Assembly (NCBI GenBank): GCA_017510405.1
Contig: JAFWNG010000017.1
Span: 1 to 51,415, forward strand
Direction of reading: 5' to 3'
DNA: 51,415 nt
DNA from: Solobacterium sp.
GTDB lineage: Bacteria > Bacillota_I > Bacilli_A > Erysipelotrichales > Erysipelotrichaceae
Positions 33,671 to 40,985 of the stretch are shown piece after piece (position 1 is the stretch's first letter; each line of letters begins with the position of its first letter). The translations under genes were made by a program, and so were the position numbers. The notes beneath the pieces were generated by a model. The model had not been told where the DNA came from and searched no databases. It saw nothing but the letters and a program-made list of their open reading frames with translations.

Positions 33671-34156
33671 ATGAAGCGTTTCGGATTTATCTATGACCAG
33701 AAGAAATGCATCGGCTGCAACGTCTGCCAGATGGCATGCAAGGATAAGAACAATCTGGAAATGGGCCTGTTCTTCCGCCGCGCCGACACGGTGAGCGCCG
33801 GCAAAGACCCATTAAAGTATTATCATTTCTCCGGTGCCTGCATCCATTGCGACGACGCGGAATGCGTGAAGCACTGCCCGACCGGCGCCATGTACCGGAA
33901 AAGCGACGGCACAGTCGGCCACCGGAAAGAAAAATGCATCGGCTGCGGAATCTGTACCAGAGTATGTCCGCAGGCCGCTCCAAAGCTCAGTTTCCGTGAC
34001 GGCCGAAGCGCCAAGTGCGACGGCTGCGCGGACTTACGGGCGATGGGAAAGAATCCGGCATGCGTGGATGCCTGTCTGACGCATTGCCTGCAGTTTGTGG
34101 ATTATGAGACCCTGAGTGGGCAGCAGGAAAGAAAGGCAGAGTACCCATGGGAATGA
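33671..34156 (+). CDS. Four-cluster ferredoxin subunit, DmsB-like
   Basis: A 161-residue electron-transfer protein. Sixteen cysteines form four [4Fe-4S] sites: C13/16/19/23, C57/60/65/69, C89/92/95/99 and C116/119/131/135, the pattern of DmsB/NrfC-type subunits. No Tat or Sec signal, so it works in the cytoplasm. It overlaps the next gene by 10 nt and surely passes electrons to that gene's molybdenum domain. AAGGAG 6 nt before ATG 33671 fixes the start; upstream in-frame ATGs lack one. It is shorter than E. coli DmsB (205). Confidence 0.9.
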   Translation: MKRFGFIYDQKKCIGCNVCQMACKDKNNLEMGLFFRRADTVSAGKDPLKYYHFSGACIHCDDAECVKHCPTGAMYRKSDGTVGHRKEKCIGCGICTRVCPQAAPKLSFRDGRSAKCDGCADLRAMGKNPACVDACLTHCLQFVDYETLSGQQERKAEYPWE

Positions 34157-37100
34157 AATATGTAATGATCGGCGGCGGCATTGCCGGTGTAAGCGCGGCG
34201 GAAACGATCCGGGCAAATTCTTCCGAGGCAGAGATCTGCATTCTCGAAGCAGGAGAAGAAAGACCGTATCTGCGTCCCCTGCTCAGCAAAACAGACATCA
34301 AATATCTGAGTGCGGAACATATCGCCCTGCATCCTGCGGAATGGTATGAACGAAAACAGATCGTGCTGAAAACGTCCTGCCCTGTCACCGGCATCGATGC
34401 GGCGAACCATTTTGTGACATGTCAGGACGGCAGTCAGATCCGGTATGACAGACTGATCTTTGCGGGCGGTGCGTCCCCGGCCGTTCCCCCAATTCCCGGT
34501 GCGGACCTGAACGGTGTGCATACCGTACGCAGTATCACGGATATGAAAAAGATCCACCGTGATATGGCTTTTGCGGAAAACGCAGTCGTGATCGGGGGCG
34601 GTGTGATCGGTGTGGAGCTTGCCGAAGAACTGAAAACAGCCGGTCTGAATGTTGCAGTACTGGAACTTACGCCAAAGCTTCTTGGCCGCTTTCTGGATGA
34701 GGAAAGCGCGGAAGTATTCAAAACACGCCTGGAAGCACATGGAATTCACAGTTTTACCAGTGTTTCAAACATTGTGATCGAAGCCGGCGGCGACGGCCTC
34801 GTCAATACCGTCAAAGCGGAGATCAGCGGCGAAAGCTGTGCGTTTGCGGCTGATCTGGTGATCTTGTCCTGCGGCATCCGCGCAAACGTGAAACTTCTGC
34901 AGGAAGCCGGTGCTGAATGCGGACGCGGTGTGATCGTCAATAACGGCATGGAGACAAGTCTTCCGGATGTACTGGCCGCAGGCGACTGCATTCAGTGGGA
35001 TCCGAATCCCGGTCTCTGGAACTTTTCTGTCCAGAGCGGCATCATAGCCGGTCTGAGCGCTGTCTATGGTGCTGAATCGGAGGAAGTCCGGAATGCCGGG
35101 TTATATAACGGCGGCGAACTGATCTTCTCCGGCAGGAATATGTTTGTGTATTCCTTCGGTGACATCACCGGCGAAGGAATACAGACCACATTTGCGCAAG
35201 ACAATAGAATTCGCTATCAGGTCAATCCGGTCGTTTCGGATGAGCCCTATGAAAAACGTTTTTACCGGGACGGTACACTGTGCGGTGCGGTCCTCATCGA
35301 CGCTCATCAGAATCTTGCGGAGATCCGCAATACTCTCTGTGGCCAGATGGGCATGACGCCCGGTGCATCTGAAAAGCAGCTGCCAAGATCTGTCTATCTG
35401 CTGGCAGCGGACTTCTTCGCCGACCGTGAGAAAGCAATGCAGATTCTGCGGCTTCTGCCGGAGTGGTCCGCACATTCCGAAGAGGAATGGCAGCTCGAAT
35501 ACGATTTCCTGTTCCGGGGCTGCGATGCCGATTTCAAGCCGTCACTGTGGGCGTCAGTCTGCTTTGACGAGCGTGTCCTGTGCAACCAGACGACTCTGGA
35601 GGTCATCAAACGTTACTACGCCGACGGCTGCCGGCCGGTCCGCATGGAAGGCAATCCCCCGGATTATATCGGTGAACAGTACCGTTATCTCTATTATCTG
35701 ACCTGTGCCGGTCTCAAAAAGCACATCGAAGCATTTACCGATGACTATACGCTGGAGAACCAGAAACTTCTGCTGAAGGAATTGAAAAAGCGCGGTACAT
35801 TCAACGCATTCATTTCCGTCTGCGATCACCTTCTCCATGTGCTTGGCGAAAGAAGCGATGCTTCGCTTGCCTCTTTTGCCAAAGCACTCGGCATTGAAAA
35901 CAGAACAGCGGAGCTCTGGGAGATCCTGAAGCCGTCCGCGGAAGAGTTCTCTGAGATCGCGGAAGACGGCGCTTCCCCTGCCATTACACCGGAGGAACCA
36001 AGAGTCATCCTGAGCGGCGGCGGAAACAACTGCGGCGGCAAATGCGTGATCCGGCCGACCGTGCAGGAAGGCTGTATCCTGAAGATCGAATCCGATCTTT
36101 CCAGCAATGATCCGCAGATCCGCGCCTGTGTCAGAGGACGCGGCTACCGGAAGACATTCCTCTCACCGGACCGTCTCCAGTACCCCATGAAGCGCATCGG
36201 TGAGCGTGGCAGCGGCAAGTTCCGCCGCATTACCTGGAAACAGGCAGCGGACGAAATAGCCGAACAGTGGATCCGCATCCGTGACACTTACGGCCCGGGA
36301 TGCCGTTACGTCAATTACGCAACGGGCATCACCGGCGTCATGCGTCCATCCCGTCTTGCCAAACGTCTCCTGGCAGCGGACGGCGGTTATCTGGAATCCT
36401 ACGGCAGCTACAGTTCTGCCTGTGCTTCCTACATTACCCCGTATATCTTCGGTGACGCATATTTCGGAAACAGTCCGGCAGATGTTCTGAATGCCGGCCT
36501 GGTGATCTTCTGGGGTGATAACTCCACGGAAACCATCTTCGGTTCGGAACGGAACTATTACCTCTCGAAACTGAAGGAAAAGAATATCCGCATCATTGCC
36601 ATCGATCCCCGTCTCTCCCAGACTGCCATCACATATGCGGATGAATGGATCCCGATCCGGCCGACTTCGGACGCAGCCCTTGCGGATGCCATGGCATATA
36701 CGATCTTTGCGGAGAACCTGCAGGATCAGGCGTATATGGACAGATACTGTATCGGCTTTGACGAAGACCATATGCCGGAAGGCGTCGGAACAAACGAAAG
36801 CTATCACAGTTATCTCTTCGGTCTGCAGGACGGCATTGAACGCACTCCGGAATGGGCAGAGCCGCTTACCGGCATACCGGCGGATACGATCCGCCGCCTG
36901 GCACGGGAGTTCGCTGCAGCAAAACCGGCCTGCATCATCAGCGGCTACGGCATCCAGCGTACCGGCAACGGCGAACAGGCAGTAAAAGGTATCGCCACCC
37001 TGGCCGCCATGACCGGAAACATCGGCATCCCCGGCGGAAATGCCGGCGGCTGCGGAATGACGCGCGAACATTCCGGACCGTCTCTTGCCATGCCTCCGAT

Positions 37101-38217
37101 TGCCAATCCGTATAAAGGCGCGATCTCGATCTTCCTGTGGACAAAGGCGATCGAACACGGTGCGGAAATGACGGCTCGCAATGACCGTGTCCACGGCATG
37201 GATAAACTGGACGCCAATGTCCGGATGATCCTGAATCTTGCCGGCAACACCCTGATCAACCAGCATTCCAACATTGCGGATACGATCCGCATTCTGAAAG
37301 ACGATTCCAAATGCCAGCTGATCGTCTGCTCGGATATCTTTATGACACCGAGTGCCCGCTACGGGGATTACGTCCTGCCCGGCACCTCTGTGTTCGAGAC
37401 AGACAATTTCAATGCGCCGTGGCGCGGAAACAACTATCTCCTGCGCAACAACAAGGTCATCGAGCCGCTCTTCGGAACACTGTTTGAATGGGAATGGCTG
37501 AAGGATATTTCGAAAAACCTCGGTCTTTATGAAACATTCACTGCCGGTCATCCGGAAGCGGACTACTGGCTGCGGAAGACCTATGAGGCACTTCGTAAAA
37601 AAGAACACGAACTGCCCGATTATAACACCTTCTCTGCCCTTGGCGGCTGGCAGTACAAAGAGCCGAAGATCTACATTGCCTTTGAAAAGCAGATCCGCGA
37701 TCCGGAACATCATCCGTTCAAGACACCAAGCGGAAAGATCGAGATCTTCTCAAAAACACTGTATGACATGCATCTGGAAGACGTTCCGGCAGTCACCCGC
37801 TATATCTCCTGTCCGGAAGGTCCGGATGATCCGCTCCAGAAGAAATTCCCGCTTCAGCTCATCGGCTGGCATACCAGACGGCGCACTCATTCCATGCACG
37901 ACAACAATGAATGGCAGGACGAAGTGGAAAAGCCGGGTCTCTGGATCCATCCGGAAGACGCCGCCGCAAGAGGAATCGCCAATGGTGATGATGTCCGCAT
38001 CTGGAATGACCGCGGCACGGTCATCATTCCCGCTGTCGTCACGACCCGCATCATGCGCGGTGTCGTCGCCATGTCGCAGGGCGGCTGGTATACACCGGAT
38101 GAAAACGGTGCCGACCGCCGCGGTTCCATCAACGTCCTGACCAGTTCCGCGTATCCCACGCCGCTGGCCAAAGGCAATCCCCAGCACACAAATCTTGTGG
38201 AAGTCGCAAAAGCCTGA
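34147..38217 (+). CDS. FAD/NAD(P)H oxidoreductase - TorD-like chaperone - DmsA-like molybdoenzyme fusion
   Basis: A 1356-residue cytoplasmic protein in three parts. (1) Residues 1-410: pyridine-nucleotide-disulfide oxidoreductase, FAD loop IGGGIAGVSAAETI, NAD(P) loop VIGGGVIGVELAEELK, and DVLAAGDCIQW. (2) Residues about 415-600: helical TorD/DmsD-like domain, SVYLLAADFFADREKAMQIL and NPPDYIGEQYRYLYYL. (3) Residues about 618-1356: DMSO-reductase-family catalytic subunit, NNCGGKC and RACVRGRGYRK (C629, C633, C661), YGSYSSACASY with the probable Mo-ligand serine, and C-terminal molydopterin-binding IHPEDAAARGIANGDDVRIW. The usual first cluster cysteine is Gly. No Tat signal. Electrons would run NAD(P)H to FAD to the ferredoxin subunit to Mo. 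Substrate unknown (S- or N-oxide likely). Confidence 0.88.
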   Translation: MGMKYVMIGGGIAGVSAAETIRANSSEAEICILEAGEERPYLRPLLSKTDIKYLSAEHIALHPAEWYERKQIVLKTSCPVTGIDAANHFVTCQDGSQIRYDRLIFAGGASPAVPPIPGADLNGVHTVRSITDMKKIHRDMAFAENAVVIGGGVIGVELAEELKTAGLNVAVLELTPKLLGRFLDEESAEVFKTRLEAHGIHSFTSVSNIVIEAGGDGLVNTVKAEISGESCAFAADLVILSCGIRANVKLLQEAGAECGRGVIVNNGMETSLPDVLAAGDCIQWDPNPGLWNFSVQSGIIAGLSAVYGAESEEVRNAGLYNGGELIFSGRNMFVYSFGDITGEGIQTTFAQDNRIRYQVNPVVSDEPYEKRFYRDGTLCGAVLIDAHQNLAEIRNTLCGQMGMTPGASEKQLPRSVYLLAADFFADREKAMQILRLLPEWSAHSEEEWQLEYDFLFRGCDADFKPSLWASVCFDERVLCNQTTLEVIKRYYADGCRPVRMEGNPPDYIGEQYRYLYYLTCAGLKKHIEAFTDDYTLENQKLLLKELKKRGTFNAFISVCDHLLHVLGERSDASLASFAKALGIENRTAELWEILKPSAEEFSEIAEDGASPAITPEEPRVILSGGGNNCGGKCVIRPTVQEGCILKIESDLSSNDPQIRACVRGRGYRKTFLSPDRLQYPMKRIGERGSGKFRRITWKQAADEIAEQWIRIRDTYGPGCRYVNYATGITGVMRPSRLAKRLLAADGGYLESYGSYSSACASYITPYIFGDAYFGNSPADVLNAGLVIFWGDNSTETIFGSERNYYLSKLKEKNIRIIAIDPRLSQTAITYADEWIPIRPTSDAALADAMAYTIFAENLQDQAYMDRYCIGFDEDHMPEGVGTNESYHSYLFGLQDGIERTPEWAEPLTGIPADTIRRLAREFAAAKPACIISGYGIQRTGNGEQAVKGIATLAAMTGNIGIPGGNAGGCGMTREHSGPSLAMPPIANPYKGAISIFLWTKAIEHGAEMTARNDRVHGMDKLDANVRMILNLAGNTLINQHSNIADTIRILKDDSKCQLIVCSDIFMTPSARYGDYVLPGTSVFETDNFNAPWRGNNYLLRNNKVIEPLFGTLFEWEWLKDISKNLGLYETFTAGHPEADYWLRKTYEALRKKEHELPDYNTFSALGGWQYKEPKIYIAFEKQIRDPEHHPFKTPSGKIEIFSKTLYDMHLEDVPAVTRYISCPEGPDDPLQKKFPLQLIGWHTRRRTHSMHDNNEWQDEVEKPGLWIHPEDAAARGIANGDDVRIWNDRGTVIIPAVVTTRIMRGVVAMSQGGWYTPDENGADRRGSINVLTSSAYPTPLAKGNPQHTNLVEVAKA

Positions 38218-38286: not shown

Positions 38287-38775
38287 TTATTCGATCGTAA
38301 TGGTTTTCAGATATCGTACCTGCCGCTTTGCATTGGCGTCGCCGTAAACGACCAGCTGTCCGCCCTGCCCTCCGTCGATGTTTTCGATCATCTCACTGTC
38401 ACAGACAACAGCCGCATACACTTTGCCGGCAGTCATGACTTCTTCACCGGTAAGTTTTGCCGTGTAATTGTCTTCCGATGTCACTGTGATCTTCGTATCT
38501 GCCGTGATCACGATGTTTTTGGCAGTGAACAGTTCGGAAAGCTCCATCCCCTGATATTCATGGTTTGATGTCTCCCCTTTGCCGTTGATGATCTCGCCGG
38601 TAAACACCGTCTTTTTGAGGTCTTCCCAGCTAACCGTAATCGTTTTCCCGCCTGTCTCCAGGATAAGACCGGATCCATCCGGCGCACTGCCTCTGACGGT
38701 CACTGCCAGAACAACAGCCGCAATGAGCAGAACCGCCGCGATCGCTGTCAGTATGTATTTTGTCTTTCTGTTCAT
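38287..38775 (-). CDS. Membrane-anchored small molybdopterin-binding-like protein
   Basis: 162 residues. One N-terminal membrane segment (YILTAIAAVLLIAAVVLAVT) is followed by a soluble domain of about 130 residues outside the cell. ITVSWEDLKKTVFTGEIIN, then HEYQGMELSELF and GGQGGQLVVYGDANAKRQVR fit the compact sulfite-oxidase-type (oxidoreductase molybdopterin-binding) fold found as a stand-alone domain in Bacillota. The conserved Mo-ligand cysteine of sulfite oxidase is not evident, so it may bind a ligand without catalysis. Third gene of the mobA-THEP1 operon. Start at 38775 (MNRKTKYI) since the upstream residues are not signal-like; GAAGAG lies close before it. Confidence 0.6.
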   Translation of the reverse strand: MNRKTKYILTAIAAVLLIAAVVLAVTVRGSAPDGSGLILETGGKTITVSWEDLKKTVFTGEIINGKGETSNHEYQGMELSELFTAKNIVITADTKITVTSEDNYTAKLTGEEVMTAGKVYAAVVCDSEMIENIDGGQGGQLVVYGDANAKRQVRYLKTITIE

Positions 38776-38809: not shown

Positions 38810-39355
38810 TCATCCACTGGCCTTTTCGCTTCTGTACAGCGGCTGGATCCTCCGTATGATGACTGCCGAGAACAGACCGCACAGACTGCCGCTGATCAGG
38901 CTGATAAGCAGATACAGCCCAAGCACAGCGCCGCGAAGACGGAATACGATGAAATTAGCTGTCAGCGCCGCCGCGATCGAACCGGCCGCATTGGCAGTCA
39001 TCATGGTGATTGGAAGACTGATATCACCGCTTCCGCACAATGCAATAGCGACATCAATGACAATGCCCGGCAGGATATAGCCGATCGGTGACAGCATCCC
39101 CATCGCACCGGTCATTCCCAGCGACATGGCAAGGATGCACTGCACCAGCGCCATCACCGACGCAGCCCCTTTCCGTCGGATCATACATGCGCCGATGACC
39201 AGAAACATCAGCGAAAACGCTGTCCCTATGCCTCCCGGTACACGGAGAAAATCCGTGAGAACGTTGGCAAACGGCGAAATGAGACGTTTTGAAACAAAAC
39301 CGATATCCGCGAAAAAAGCCAGCAAGATCAGATCCCGCACCTTTATGTTTTTCAT
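38810..39355 (-). CDS. ECF transporter S component
   Basis: A 181-residue protein with about six hydrophobic helices and an N-terminal KVRDLILLAFFADIGFVSKR, the short charged start and 'A-x-x-x-A'-like first helix of S components that dock with EcfT. It should bind a vitamin-like or metal-cofactor substrate and work with the shared EcfA1A2T module encoded elsewhere. Its ATG overlaps the stop of mobA-THEP1 (ATGA), so it is co-expressed with molybdenum-cofactor maturation. A pterin or Mo-cofactor precursor as substrate is inference from position only. Confidence 0.7.
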   Translation of the reverse strand: MKNIKVRDLILLAFFADIGFVSKRLISPFANVLTDFLRVPGGIGTAFSLMFLVIGACMIRRKGAASVMALVQCILAMSLGMTGAMGMLSPIGYILPGIVIDVAIALCGSGDISLPITMMTANAAGSIAAALTANFIVFRLRGAVLGLYLLISLISGSLCGLFSAVIIRRIQPLYRSEKASG

Positions 39356-40539
39356 TGCGGATCCTCTTTCCTGTACTGCATTCTCAGCTGTTCATATACT
39401 GCATCGCGGTTTGTTTCATCCAGTTCGATCAGCCGGACATTTTCATGGCTGCGCACTGCGTCAAGAAAAGGTGTTGAGATCCTTCCGGCTTTGATCGCCG
39501 CAAGCACCGGAATACTGCCGTCAAAGGCAGAAAGCACTGCCTTCCGGAAGCGCTCCGCCTTCTCCTCCATAAAGCCTATCTCATCCATGATGATCCGCTG
39601 CTTTCCGGAAGCGGAACGGATCAGCTCTGTACCGTATAGATCAAAGACTTCCGGATGCACTTCCTTTACGCCGTTCATAGTGATCCCGCACAGTCTCCCG
39701 TTTGCCGAGGCGGCGGTGTCCTGATCACCCGGATCACACAGGAAGGAAGCCGGATACATGAACACTTCCCGATACCCCTTCGGACGGTTTATGACCGCCC
39801 GGGTCAGATACCCGCCGACGCTCCACTGCATTTCCTTTACCAGTTTCCGGATCAGTGTGGATTTGCCGGCGCCGCTTTCTCCCTGCAGAACAATGTGCTT
39901 CGGTCTGCGTTCTGTTTTCCTTACCAGCGCTTCGTAATCATCGGGTGTATTGACATTGAACAGCATCCTGTCCTGTTCCGCATTATCTGTTCGGACAGAG
40001 ACTGTGCGAAGTTTCGGATGTCGGATCAGAGACATCAGCCGGTAATTGCCTGCTCTGATCAGCTCTTCTGCCGCACCAATAACACTGGTTCGATAATACC
40101 CGACGGTCGGATGCGTTCTCCCGTCGGAAGATTCCAGAATGACAATATCTGCCTGCGGGTCTTTTCTCACCGCATCTGCGATCCGCTCAAAGAGTTCCCT
40201 TTCAAACAGCGGCAGGTCCACGGGCACCGTATAGATCCCGTCCAGTCCGTCCCGGACACACTGTTTCAGCCCGGTATAGATTCCTCCAAGCGGTCCGATG
40301 TAATCACCCTTCTCATCACGCACCTCATCTTTGAGAGCGGTGAAATCCGCCGGGATCTCTTCCGCGGCGTTTGCCAGTGATACATACTGCGGAAGCCCCA
40401 TGTGCCGGACTTTCTCACAGAGGATCTCCAGAAAACTCTGATCCTGCCAGACCAGTTTTGCCTTATCCTGTTTCATGCGGCCGGATCTCCCGCCGCAGAG
40501 GATCAGGCATCCGGATCTTTGTGTATTGTTCTCATTCAT
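39352..40539 (-). CDS. mobA: MobA - THEP1-type NTPase fusion
   Basis: 395 residues in two domains. Residues 1-200: molybdenum cofactor guanylyltransferase, with LILCGGRSGRMKQDKAKL (the G-G-x-S-x-R-M-x-x-D-K loop), GDYIGPLGGIYTGL and TVPVDLPLF. It attaches GMP to molybdopterin to make the MGD cofactor used by DMSO-reductase-family enzymes. Residues about 210-395: P-loop domain LQGESGAGKSTLIRKLV with later RIIMDEIGFMEEKAERFRKA, which matches THEP1-type nucleotide triphosphatases better than MobB. Start at ATG 40539 is likely; an in-frame GTG 12 nt upstream, nearer to AAAGGA, is an alternative. It heads an operon convergent with the molybdoenzyme, and has a structured leader. Confidence 0.85.
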   Translation of the reverse strand: MNENNTQRSGCLILCGGRSGRMKQDKAKLVWQDQSFLEILCEKVRHMGLPQYVSLANAAEEIPADFTALKDEVRDEKGDYIGPLGGIYTGLKQCVRDGLDGIYTVPVDLPLFERELFERIADAVRKDPQADIVILESSDGRTHPTVGYYRTSVIGAAEELIRAGNYRLMSLIRHPKLRTVSVRTDNAEQDRMLFNVNTPDDYEALVRKTERRPKHIVLQGESGAGKSTLIRKLVKEMQWSVGGYLTRAVINRPKGYREVFMYPASFLCDPGDQDTAASANGRLCGITMNGVKEVHPEVFDLYGTELIRSASGKQRIIMDEIGFMEEKAERFRKAVLSAFDGSIPVLAAIKAGRISTPFLDAVRSHENVRLIELDETNRDAVYEQLRMQYRKEDPQ

Positions 40540-40577
40540 ATCTATTCTCACTGTGTCCTTTACGGATGATCCTCTGG

Positions 40578-40629
40578 AAAAAGAAAAAATCACCGCATGA
40601 AAAACATGTTGTGATCCTGTTTTTCACGC
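40578..40629 (-). terminator. Intrinsic terminator in the mobA leader
   Basis: On the minus strand GCGTGAAAAAC (40629-40619) pairs with GTTTTTCATGC (40605-40595), 11 bp with one G-U pair, followed by GGTGATTTTTTCTTTTT. It lies between the structured element and the mobA start, so it is placed to act as an expression platform. Confidence 0.75.
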
Positions 40630-40643
40630 TCTTTTTTTCAAAT

Positions 40644-40715
40644 GCGGAAGGCTGAAACGTTTCCCTTTCAACCCTTTGGACCGATGTCCCGGCGCAATAC
40701 CGTGCCGCTTTCCGG
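40644..40715 (-). ncRNA. Putative riboswitch aptamer upstream of mobA-THEP1
   Basis: A compact multibranch element can be drawn. Closing stem CGGAAAG/CTTCCG (40714-40708 with 40650-40645). Inside, three adjoining hairpins: CGGC/GCCG (40707-40704 with 40693-40690), GGAC-AUCG-GUCC (40689-40678), and GUUGAAA/UUUCAGC (40672-40666 with 40657-40651) with a GGGAAACG-type loop. The helices abut with almost no linkers, as in folded aptamers. A terminator follows about 15 nt downstream and then the molybdenum-cofactor gene. A Moco/Wco-type riboswitch is the first thing to test, but I could not match its consensus from memory, so a different ligand or a new class is open. Confidence 0.5.
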
Positions 40716-40985
40716 TTTAGGTATTTTTGCTCAAAGAAGTGAATATTTCGTAATGTTGTCCGCAGAATGATATATGTTCTTCGATCGGACTGCGGTATGG
40801 GACGGGCAGCGGATATCCGCAGACGTTCCCGCCATCACCATGATAACACGTACGCCTTCTGACATGGCGGATAAAACAGCCATGTGACGACAGATAAGAA
40901 GTATCCTGCAATGATTGATATGGGAGTACAAAGTCCTCTTCAAATGTTACTATAAAGTCAGAAAGAAAGTGAACGGATCATTATA
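40716..40985. other. Intergenic region between divergent mobA and lipoprotein genes
   Basis: No gene seen. ACATGGC/GCCATGT (about 40862-40885) and CCGCAG/CTGCGG (about 40761-40794) make hairpins. The promoter for the mobA leader must lie near 40730-40770 on the minus strand; I see no strong consensus. Confidence 0.3.

Follow-up and report, generated by a model that had tools for sequence, protein, structure and literature searches.

The window examined here, a 51,415-nt stretch of DNA from Solobacterium sp. (contig JAFWNG010000017.1), encodes a molybdoenzyme in which a diaphorase, a TorD-like chaperone, and a DmsA-like reductase form one chain and, convergent with it on the minus strand, an operon for a MobA-NTPase, an ECF-S-type protein, and a small anchored protein (Table 1). 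The architecture of the fusion enzyme, a DmsA-family variant, is well supported and its evolutionary path clear; the neighboring operon is the more important lead. We consider it probable that this DmsA-family enzyme is soluble and cytoplasmic, reduces S- or N-oxide-type acceptors with NADH, holds its chaperone within the chain, and is probably charged with imported Moco. With slightly less confidence, we favor a reading of the operon as a bacterial Moco salvage system, in which an ECF-type importer, an anchored Moco-binding protein of the sulfite oxidase fold, and MobA, under the control of a Moco riboswitch, would let Moco-auxotrophic gut anaerobes use the cofactor of their neighbors.

Table 1. 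Features of the fusion enzyme locus and the convergent operon, in window coordinates
Feature	Coordinates	Strand	Basis
DmsB-like four-cluster Fe-S subunit, 161 aa	33671..34156	+	TIGR02951 DMSO_dmsB 6e-43 (below model cut-off); Fer4_11 7e-18
Fusion enzyme, diaphorase - TorD-like chaperone - DmsA-like reductase	34147..38217	+	ORF, Pfam, NCBIfam, relatives
NirB/rubredoxin-reductase-type FAD- and NADH-binding module, residues 1-400	34147..35346	+	Pyr_redox_2 5e-56
TorD/DmsD-type chaperone domain, residues about 419-608	35401..35970	+	PF02613 above cut-off; AlphaFold; VIA Z 13.3 to DmsD
DmsA/YnfE-type Mo-bisPGD catalytic domain, residues 616-1356	35992..38214	+	TIGR02166, alignment, fold
FS0 region, residues 625-661	36019..36129	+	Gly625 in place of the first Cys; Cys629, Cys633, and Cys661 retained; additional Cys643 specific to the clade
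Small membrane-anchored protein with sulfite-oxidase-type (PF00174-like) domain, candidate Moco capture protein	38287..38775	-	PF00174 E 0.006; beside ECF-S
ECF-S/ABC_cobalt-type membrane protein, candidate Moco importer	38810..39355	-	PF09819 above cut-off; distribution
MobA guanylyltransferase fused to NTPase domain	39352..40593	-	NTP_transf_3, NTPase_1, molyb_mobA; probable ATG start 40539
Terminator-like hairpin with U tract behind aptamer	40578..40629	-	5' arm overlaps 3' strand of (extended) P1
Moco riboswitch aptamer RF01055, with P3 stem	40615..40748	-	73.9 bits vs gathering 36; model positions 1-135 of 135

Architecture of the fusion enzyme

The initial annotation had read this gene as a single chain with donor, chaperone, and catalytic domains in that order, and both the chain and the order were borne out. 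The gene is one ORF of 1356 codons with an ATG start and no internal stops, and the Pfam matches follow one another along it: Pyr_redox_2 at residues 3 to 298 and the TorD family at 431 to 530, both above cut-off, and, in the catalytic part, Molybdop_Fe4S4 (628 to 668), Molybdopterin (676 to 1123), and Molydop_binding (1236 to 1348). No frameshift separates the parts, and a chimeric assembly or frameshift as the source of the fusion was ruled out by the presence of the same chain in ten other MAGs. An acidic residue past the second Rossmann motif (GGGVIGVE...VLEL) suggests that the diaphorase uses NADH rather than NADPH. The DmsB-like gene precedes the fusion gene and overlaps it by 10 nt at its 3' end; its product carries 16 cluster cysteines, which the relatives checked share, in agreement with the four-cluster ferredoxin partner first proposed. 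We infer that electrons would pass from NADH to the FAD of the N-terminal module, through the DmsB-like partner with its four Fe-S clusters to a remodeled FS0, and on to Mo-bisPGD and an oxidized acceptor.

The catalytic domain matched NCBIfam TIGR02166 (dmsA_ynfE) with 883 bits against a cut-off of 778. Assignments to NasC, thiosulfate reductase, or FDH were rejected on much lower scores (114 bits for NasC). Ser756 aligned with the Ser that ligates Mo in Rhodobacter DMSO reductase, and the closest folds were those of DMSO, TMAO, and methionine-sulfoxide reductases, with no DmsA or YnfE structure among the matches. These folds would point to an S- or N-oxide as acceptor. An oxyanion acceptor (selenate or tellurate, for example) is an alternative that we consider improbable, although TIGR02166 also includes the selenate/tellurate reductases YnfE and YnfF, whose own models gave 674 and 652 bits, close to the 681 of the DmsA model. 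The fold matches speak against an oxyanion as far as their lack of a DmsA/YnfE structure allows, while the sequence itself does not discriminate among substrates.

The first FS0 cysteine was absent in all 25 main-set fusions, and all 25 carried Cys643; among 12 unfused comparison enzymes, a cysteine occurred at or beside the first FS0 position in 11 and Cys643 in none. Alignment thus marks Cys643 as a signature of the main fusion clade. Since some unfused enzymes (L027, L074, and L077 to L079) lack both cysteines, loss of the first FS0 cysteine probably predates the fusion. The idea that Cys643 directly substitutes for the lost cysteine was weakened by the absence of that cysteine without Cys643 in L027, L052, and L074 to L079. 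Predicted secondary structure also counts against it, placing Cys643 where the second strand of a hairpin after Cys633 begins, past a seven-residue first strand.

The enzyme shares with E. coli DmsABC and its chaperone DmsD (and with YnfEFGH) a DmsA-type catalytic domain (TIGR02166), a DmsB-like four-cluster subunit, and a TorD-family chaperone. It differs from DmsABC in having no Tat signal and no DmsC anchor, in carrying the chaperone and the NADH module in the same chain, in the position of the Fe-S gene upstream rather than downstream, and in the loss of the first FS0 cysteine. In NADH-linked assimilatory nitrate reductases of the NasB/NasC type, a NirB-type flavin module feeds a cytoplasmic Mo-bisPGD reductase, as in the fusion; the present enzyme departs from these in the DmsA-subfamily affiliation of its catalytic domain, its fused chaperone, and its separate DmsB-like subunit.

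An internal TorD-like chaperone domain

Residues 415 to 610 do show the TorD similarity on which the initial annotation depended. The Pfam Nitrate_red_del/TorD model (PF02613) matched the full chain at 1.3e-5 (25.7 bits against a cut-off of 22.2) and the excised stretch at 5.6e-7. Modeled with AlphaFold together with 19 relatives, the excised region was all-alpha (pLDDT 86.8, pTM 0.86). The best eleven VIA structure matches to this model were all chaperones of the TorD/DmsD/NarJ/TtrD type, with DmsD first at Z 13.3, followed by YcdY (12.3), TtrD and Archaeoglobus relatives (10.4 to 11.6), and NarJ (10.2 to 10.4), after which the next match fell to Z 5.8. The chaperone is here part of one chain rather than a separate protein acting in trans, and a profile search of the genome returned no PF02613 match beyond the fusion's own.

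We asked whether this domain still works as a chaperone. It might instead be a structural linker that has given up that role and serves to dock the Fe-S subunit or the diaphorase close to FS0. The motif core NPPDYIGEQ is kept, with Tyr in most fusions at the position where TorD/DmsD proteins usually have His, and the TorD-DmsA portion is modeled confidently as one unit (pTM 0.90), which would fit permanent packing. However, the TorD core is among the best-conserved stretches of the domain, L017, L022, and L035 have the TorD fusion without an adjacent diaphorase gene, and the genome has no further PF02613 match; we therefore think a mere linker unlikely. The preferred reading, that of a working chaperone, is compatible with the report that TorD binds the enzyme core and helps Moco insertion even without a signal peptide (PMC10609526). 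By analogy, the domain would bind the core and assist Moco insertion in cis and, tethered at the N terminus of the catalytic domain, would keep the apo-enzyme open for insertion of clusters and cofactor. The literature searched contained nothing relevant on TorD fusions.

Probable loss of Tat export and of the membrane anchor

The FAD-binding fold forms the very start of the chain, and no Tat signal lies ahead of it, as the initial annotation had noted. TatC went undetected in this genome and in 21 of the 22 fusion genomes overall, the exception being G160. DmsC (PF04976) was found neither here nor in any of the 22, and a UbiA-type prenyltransferase, likewise not found in this genome, scored above cut-off in one of them. 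As controls, both DmsABC comparison genomes had TatC and DmsC. Given a chain that starts at the FAD fold and the lack of TatC and DmsC matches, the enzyme is probably cytoplasmic, quinone-independent, and fed by NADH, so that the earlier proposal of a cytoplasmic NADH-driven reductase that needs no membrane chain has good support; the recycling of NAD+ also foreseen there is a putative function. Without Tat export, there is no signal peptide for the TorD domain to proofread. The enzyme illustrates how an export-dependent respiratory reductase could turn into a self-maturing cytoplasmic NADH enzyme after loss of Tat and of the quinol anchor.

Relatives and the path to the fusion

A scan for relatives with one genome per species yielded 56 loci. 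Outside the window, all three domains occur in one ORF in ten MAGs (L002 to L008 and L010 to L012; the L005 copy begins at residue 30), and an eleventh relative, L009, is truncated by a contig end; the triple-fusion MAGs are all labeled Solobacterium or Erysipelotrichaceae. The initial annotation had called the arrangement a striking design. Its central feature, a chaperone set between donor and catalytic domains, holds up, but it is not unique: within one clade of Clostridia and Erysipelotrichia, fusion of TorD to DmsA is common, and in many relatives the diaphorase is a separate neighboring gene. Thus, in Clostridia loci L014, L015, L016, L019, L023, L038, and apparently L057, an FeS gene, a separate diaphorase gene, and a TorD-DmsA gene overlap or are closely packed. 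In G135 and G059, from the window's own family, the diaphorase and TorD-DmsA are neighboring genes, which in G059 lie in the same frame and are parted by TAG AGT ATG. Another kind of fusion occupies this joint in L013, L018, and L020, where the FeS subunit rather than the diaphorase precedes TorD-DmsA in one chain.

In a tree of 47 catalytic-domain sequences, the TorD fusion requires one change, at a weakly supported split (41), and the triple fusion forms one clade (support 100). The diaphorase tree placed the fused copies, the operon copies, and some NirB-like copies in one supported group without internal resolution. Because Clostridia carry the same parts collinearly as an operon (FeS, diaphorase, and TorD-DmsA), we suggest that TorD joined DmsA first and the diaphorase followed, a path from chaperone to electron donor with living intermediates for each step. 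The TorD-DmsA fusion itself is probably old, with the diaphorase and the FeS subunit joined separately in different lines. Among 291 genomes sampled by way of a Lachnospiraceae genome, the TorD profile matched in 4, and in 3 of these the match lay in a frame of at least about 1000 residues. In Lachnospiraceae bacterium MC2017 (L019, 9203-12007), an in-frame TGA breaks TorD-DmsA after residue 709; selenocysteine was considered at this position, but the aligned residue varies (Gly or Lys), and a nonsense change or a sequencing error is likelier.

A Moco riboswitch ahead of the convergent operon

The Moco riboswitch, the sole Rfam family found in the whole window, lies directly upstream of the operon. 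Like those of known Moco riboswitch regulons, this RF01055 aptamer has a P3 stem, the form tied to Moco rather than to the tungsten cofactor in the accessible part of Regulski 2008 (PMC2408646); the targets described there, with no cofactor importer among them, range from moa synthesis genes to molybdate transport and enzymes that use Moco. Since the hairpin behind the aptamer shares its 5' arm with P1, we predict an ON switch, with expression when Moco is bound. As read from the sequence, this geometry predicts feed-forward control instead of the usual feedback repression, and hence not simple feedback on an importer. In the salvage model, the riboswitch ahead of the MobA operon would sense the Moco level.

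Moco riboswitches precede the cassette at nine loci (the window, L002, L004, L009, L010, L092, L093, L094, and L096), and in three of them, those of G135, G158, and G166, the aptamer lies directly before the ECF-S gene itself. The cassettes of G154 and G160 showed no such aptamer; in G148 the contig stops just upstream of ecfS. In all ten genomes with the ECF-S gene, the gene for the small protein is directly beside it. The tentative assignment of this protein to the sulfite-oxidase-type molybdopterin-binding domain (PF00174) comes from a match above cut-off in the homologue L091, with weaker matches in the window and in L092 (E 0.0014) and no match for the most divergent homologues. No cysteine is conserved throughout the family. 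Matches of the small protein to S-layer models were set aside because they look like composition matches. PF09819 narrowly passed its cut-off with the ECF-S proteins of the window and G135; the other homologues matched below cut-off or not at all. In the proposed pathway, the anchored protein would capture Mo-molybdopterin outside the cell, the ECF-S protein with a shared ECF energizing core would bring it in, and MobA would convert the imported Mo-molybdopterin to bis-MGD.

Distribution of the candidate importer and of Moco synthesis

Moco is generally held to be too labile for trade between free-living bacteria. Profiles for MoaA, MoaC, MoeA, and ModA returned no match in the window's genome (96.6% complete) at the thresholds used. 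Because this genome has no detectable Moco synthesis genes, Moco is probably imported ready-made via the adjacent operon, and we infer that the organism salvages it, an unusual form of supply that the initial annotation had left out. Among 28 genomes tested, 10 carried the ECF-S gene; MoaC and ModA were each absent from 9 of these and MoeA from all 10. Conversely, the 18 genomes without ECF-S had MoaC in 15, MoeA in 15, and ModA in 16 cases (MoaA was searched in all but G135, G059, G336, and G417). Fisher's test gave P values of 2.7e-4 for MoaC and 2.2e-5 for MoeA, to be read with the caution that most genomes are MAGs and that Moco genes are often clustered, so that absences within a genome are not independent. 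Contrasts on the enzyme tree gave six independent cases and none in the opposite direction (sign-test median P of 0.06); corrected for the tree, the link between ECF-S and a missing pathway is suggestive, not conclusive. Tree neighbors illustrate the pattern: G160 combines the cassette with a missing pathway, G156 shows the reverse, and the same holds for G135 and G059. G150 has neither pathway nor ECF-S.

A more ordinary supply would leave the enzyme as described and have its Moco made in the normal way, the synthesis genes having been lost in assembly gaps and the ECF protein importing some other vitamin or a metal under co-regulation with MobA. The predominance of MAGs in the data set would favor it, as would the naming of PF09819 for cobalt transport and the coexistence in G146 of the cassette with MoaA, MoaC, and ModA, where contamination was not supported because the Moco contig looks native by composition (tetranucleotide correlation of 0.95 with the genome's own contig). 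However, ECF-S genomes without the pathway span several genera and include Oribacterium sp. C9 (G160), labeled an isolate, in which MoaA, MoaC, MoeA, and ModA are all missing. An aptamer for Moco directly before ecfS in three genomes and a constant partner of the sulfite oxidase fold are also difficult to reconcile with an unrelated substrate, and we regard this explanation as rather unlikely. Under the salvage reading that we prefer, the absence of MoeA and ModA as well makes the imported compound more likely a Mo-containing cofactor than a metal-free pterin.

If true, a riboswitch-controlled importer found mostly in genomes without MoaA, MoaC, MoeA, and ModA would turn Moco into a common resource in rumen and gut, on a par with B12 and queuine. 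It would also be the first bacterial importer of intact Moco, as far as the literature searched shows: no such importer was described there, and the sole mention of Moco uptake was a gap-filling result of a metabolic model, called unrealistic by its authors. A nematode has been reported to receive Moco from bacteria (Warnhoff and Ruvkun 2019, as cited in PMC13337977). A similar arrangement is found in Clostridioides difficile, where the ECF S-component QrtT, used for PreQ1 salvage, is under the control of a PreQ1 riboswitch, again with a riboswitch for a pterin-like or base cofactor before an ECF substrate-binding component in a host unable to make the compound (PMC11477304). The present operon differs from that of QrtT in its Moco aptamer, in its partners MobA and the sulfite-oxidase-fold protein, and in the putative nature of its transport. 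The cassette offers a directly testable gene pair for Moco import.

Its occurrence in G160 between an NAD-linked formate dehydrogenase and MobA shows that the cassette is not tied to DmsA. At that locus (L095, 3707-9861), ecfS, the small-protein gene, and mobA come right after the formate dehydrogenase. Beside the cassette of G166 (L094, 1142-6502) lie a 1348-aa Cas9-like protein and repeated peptide frames that resemble a CRISPR array, as judged by eye.
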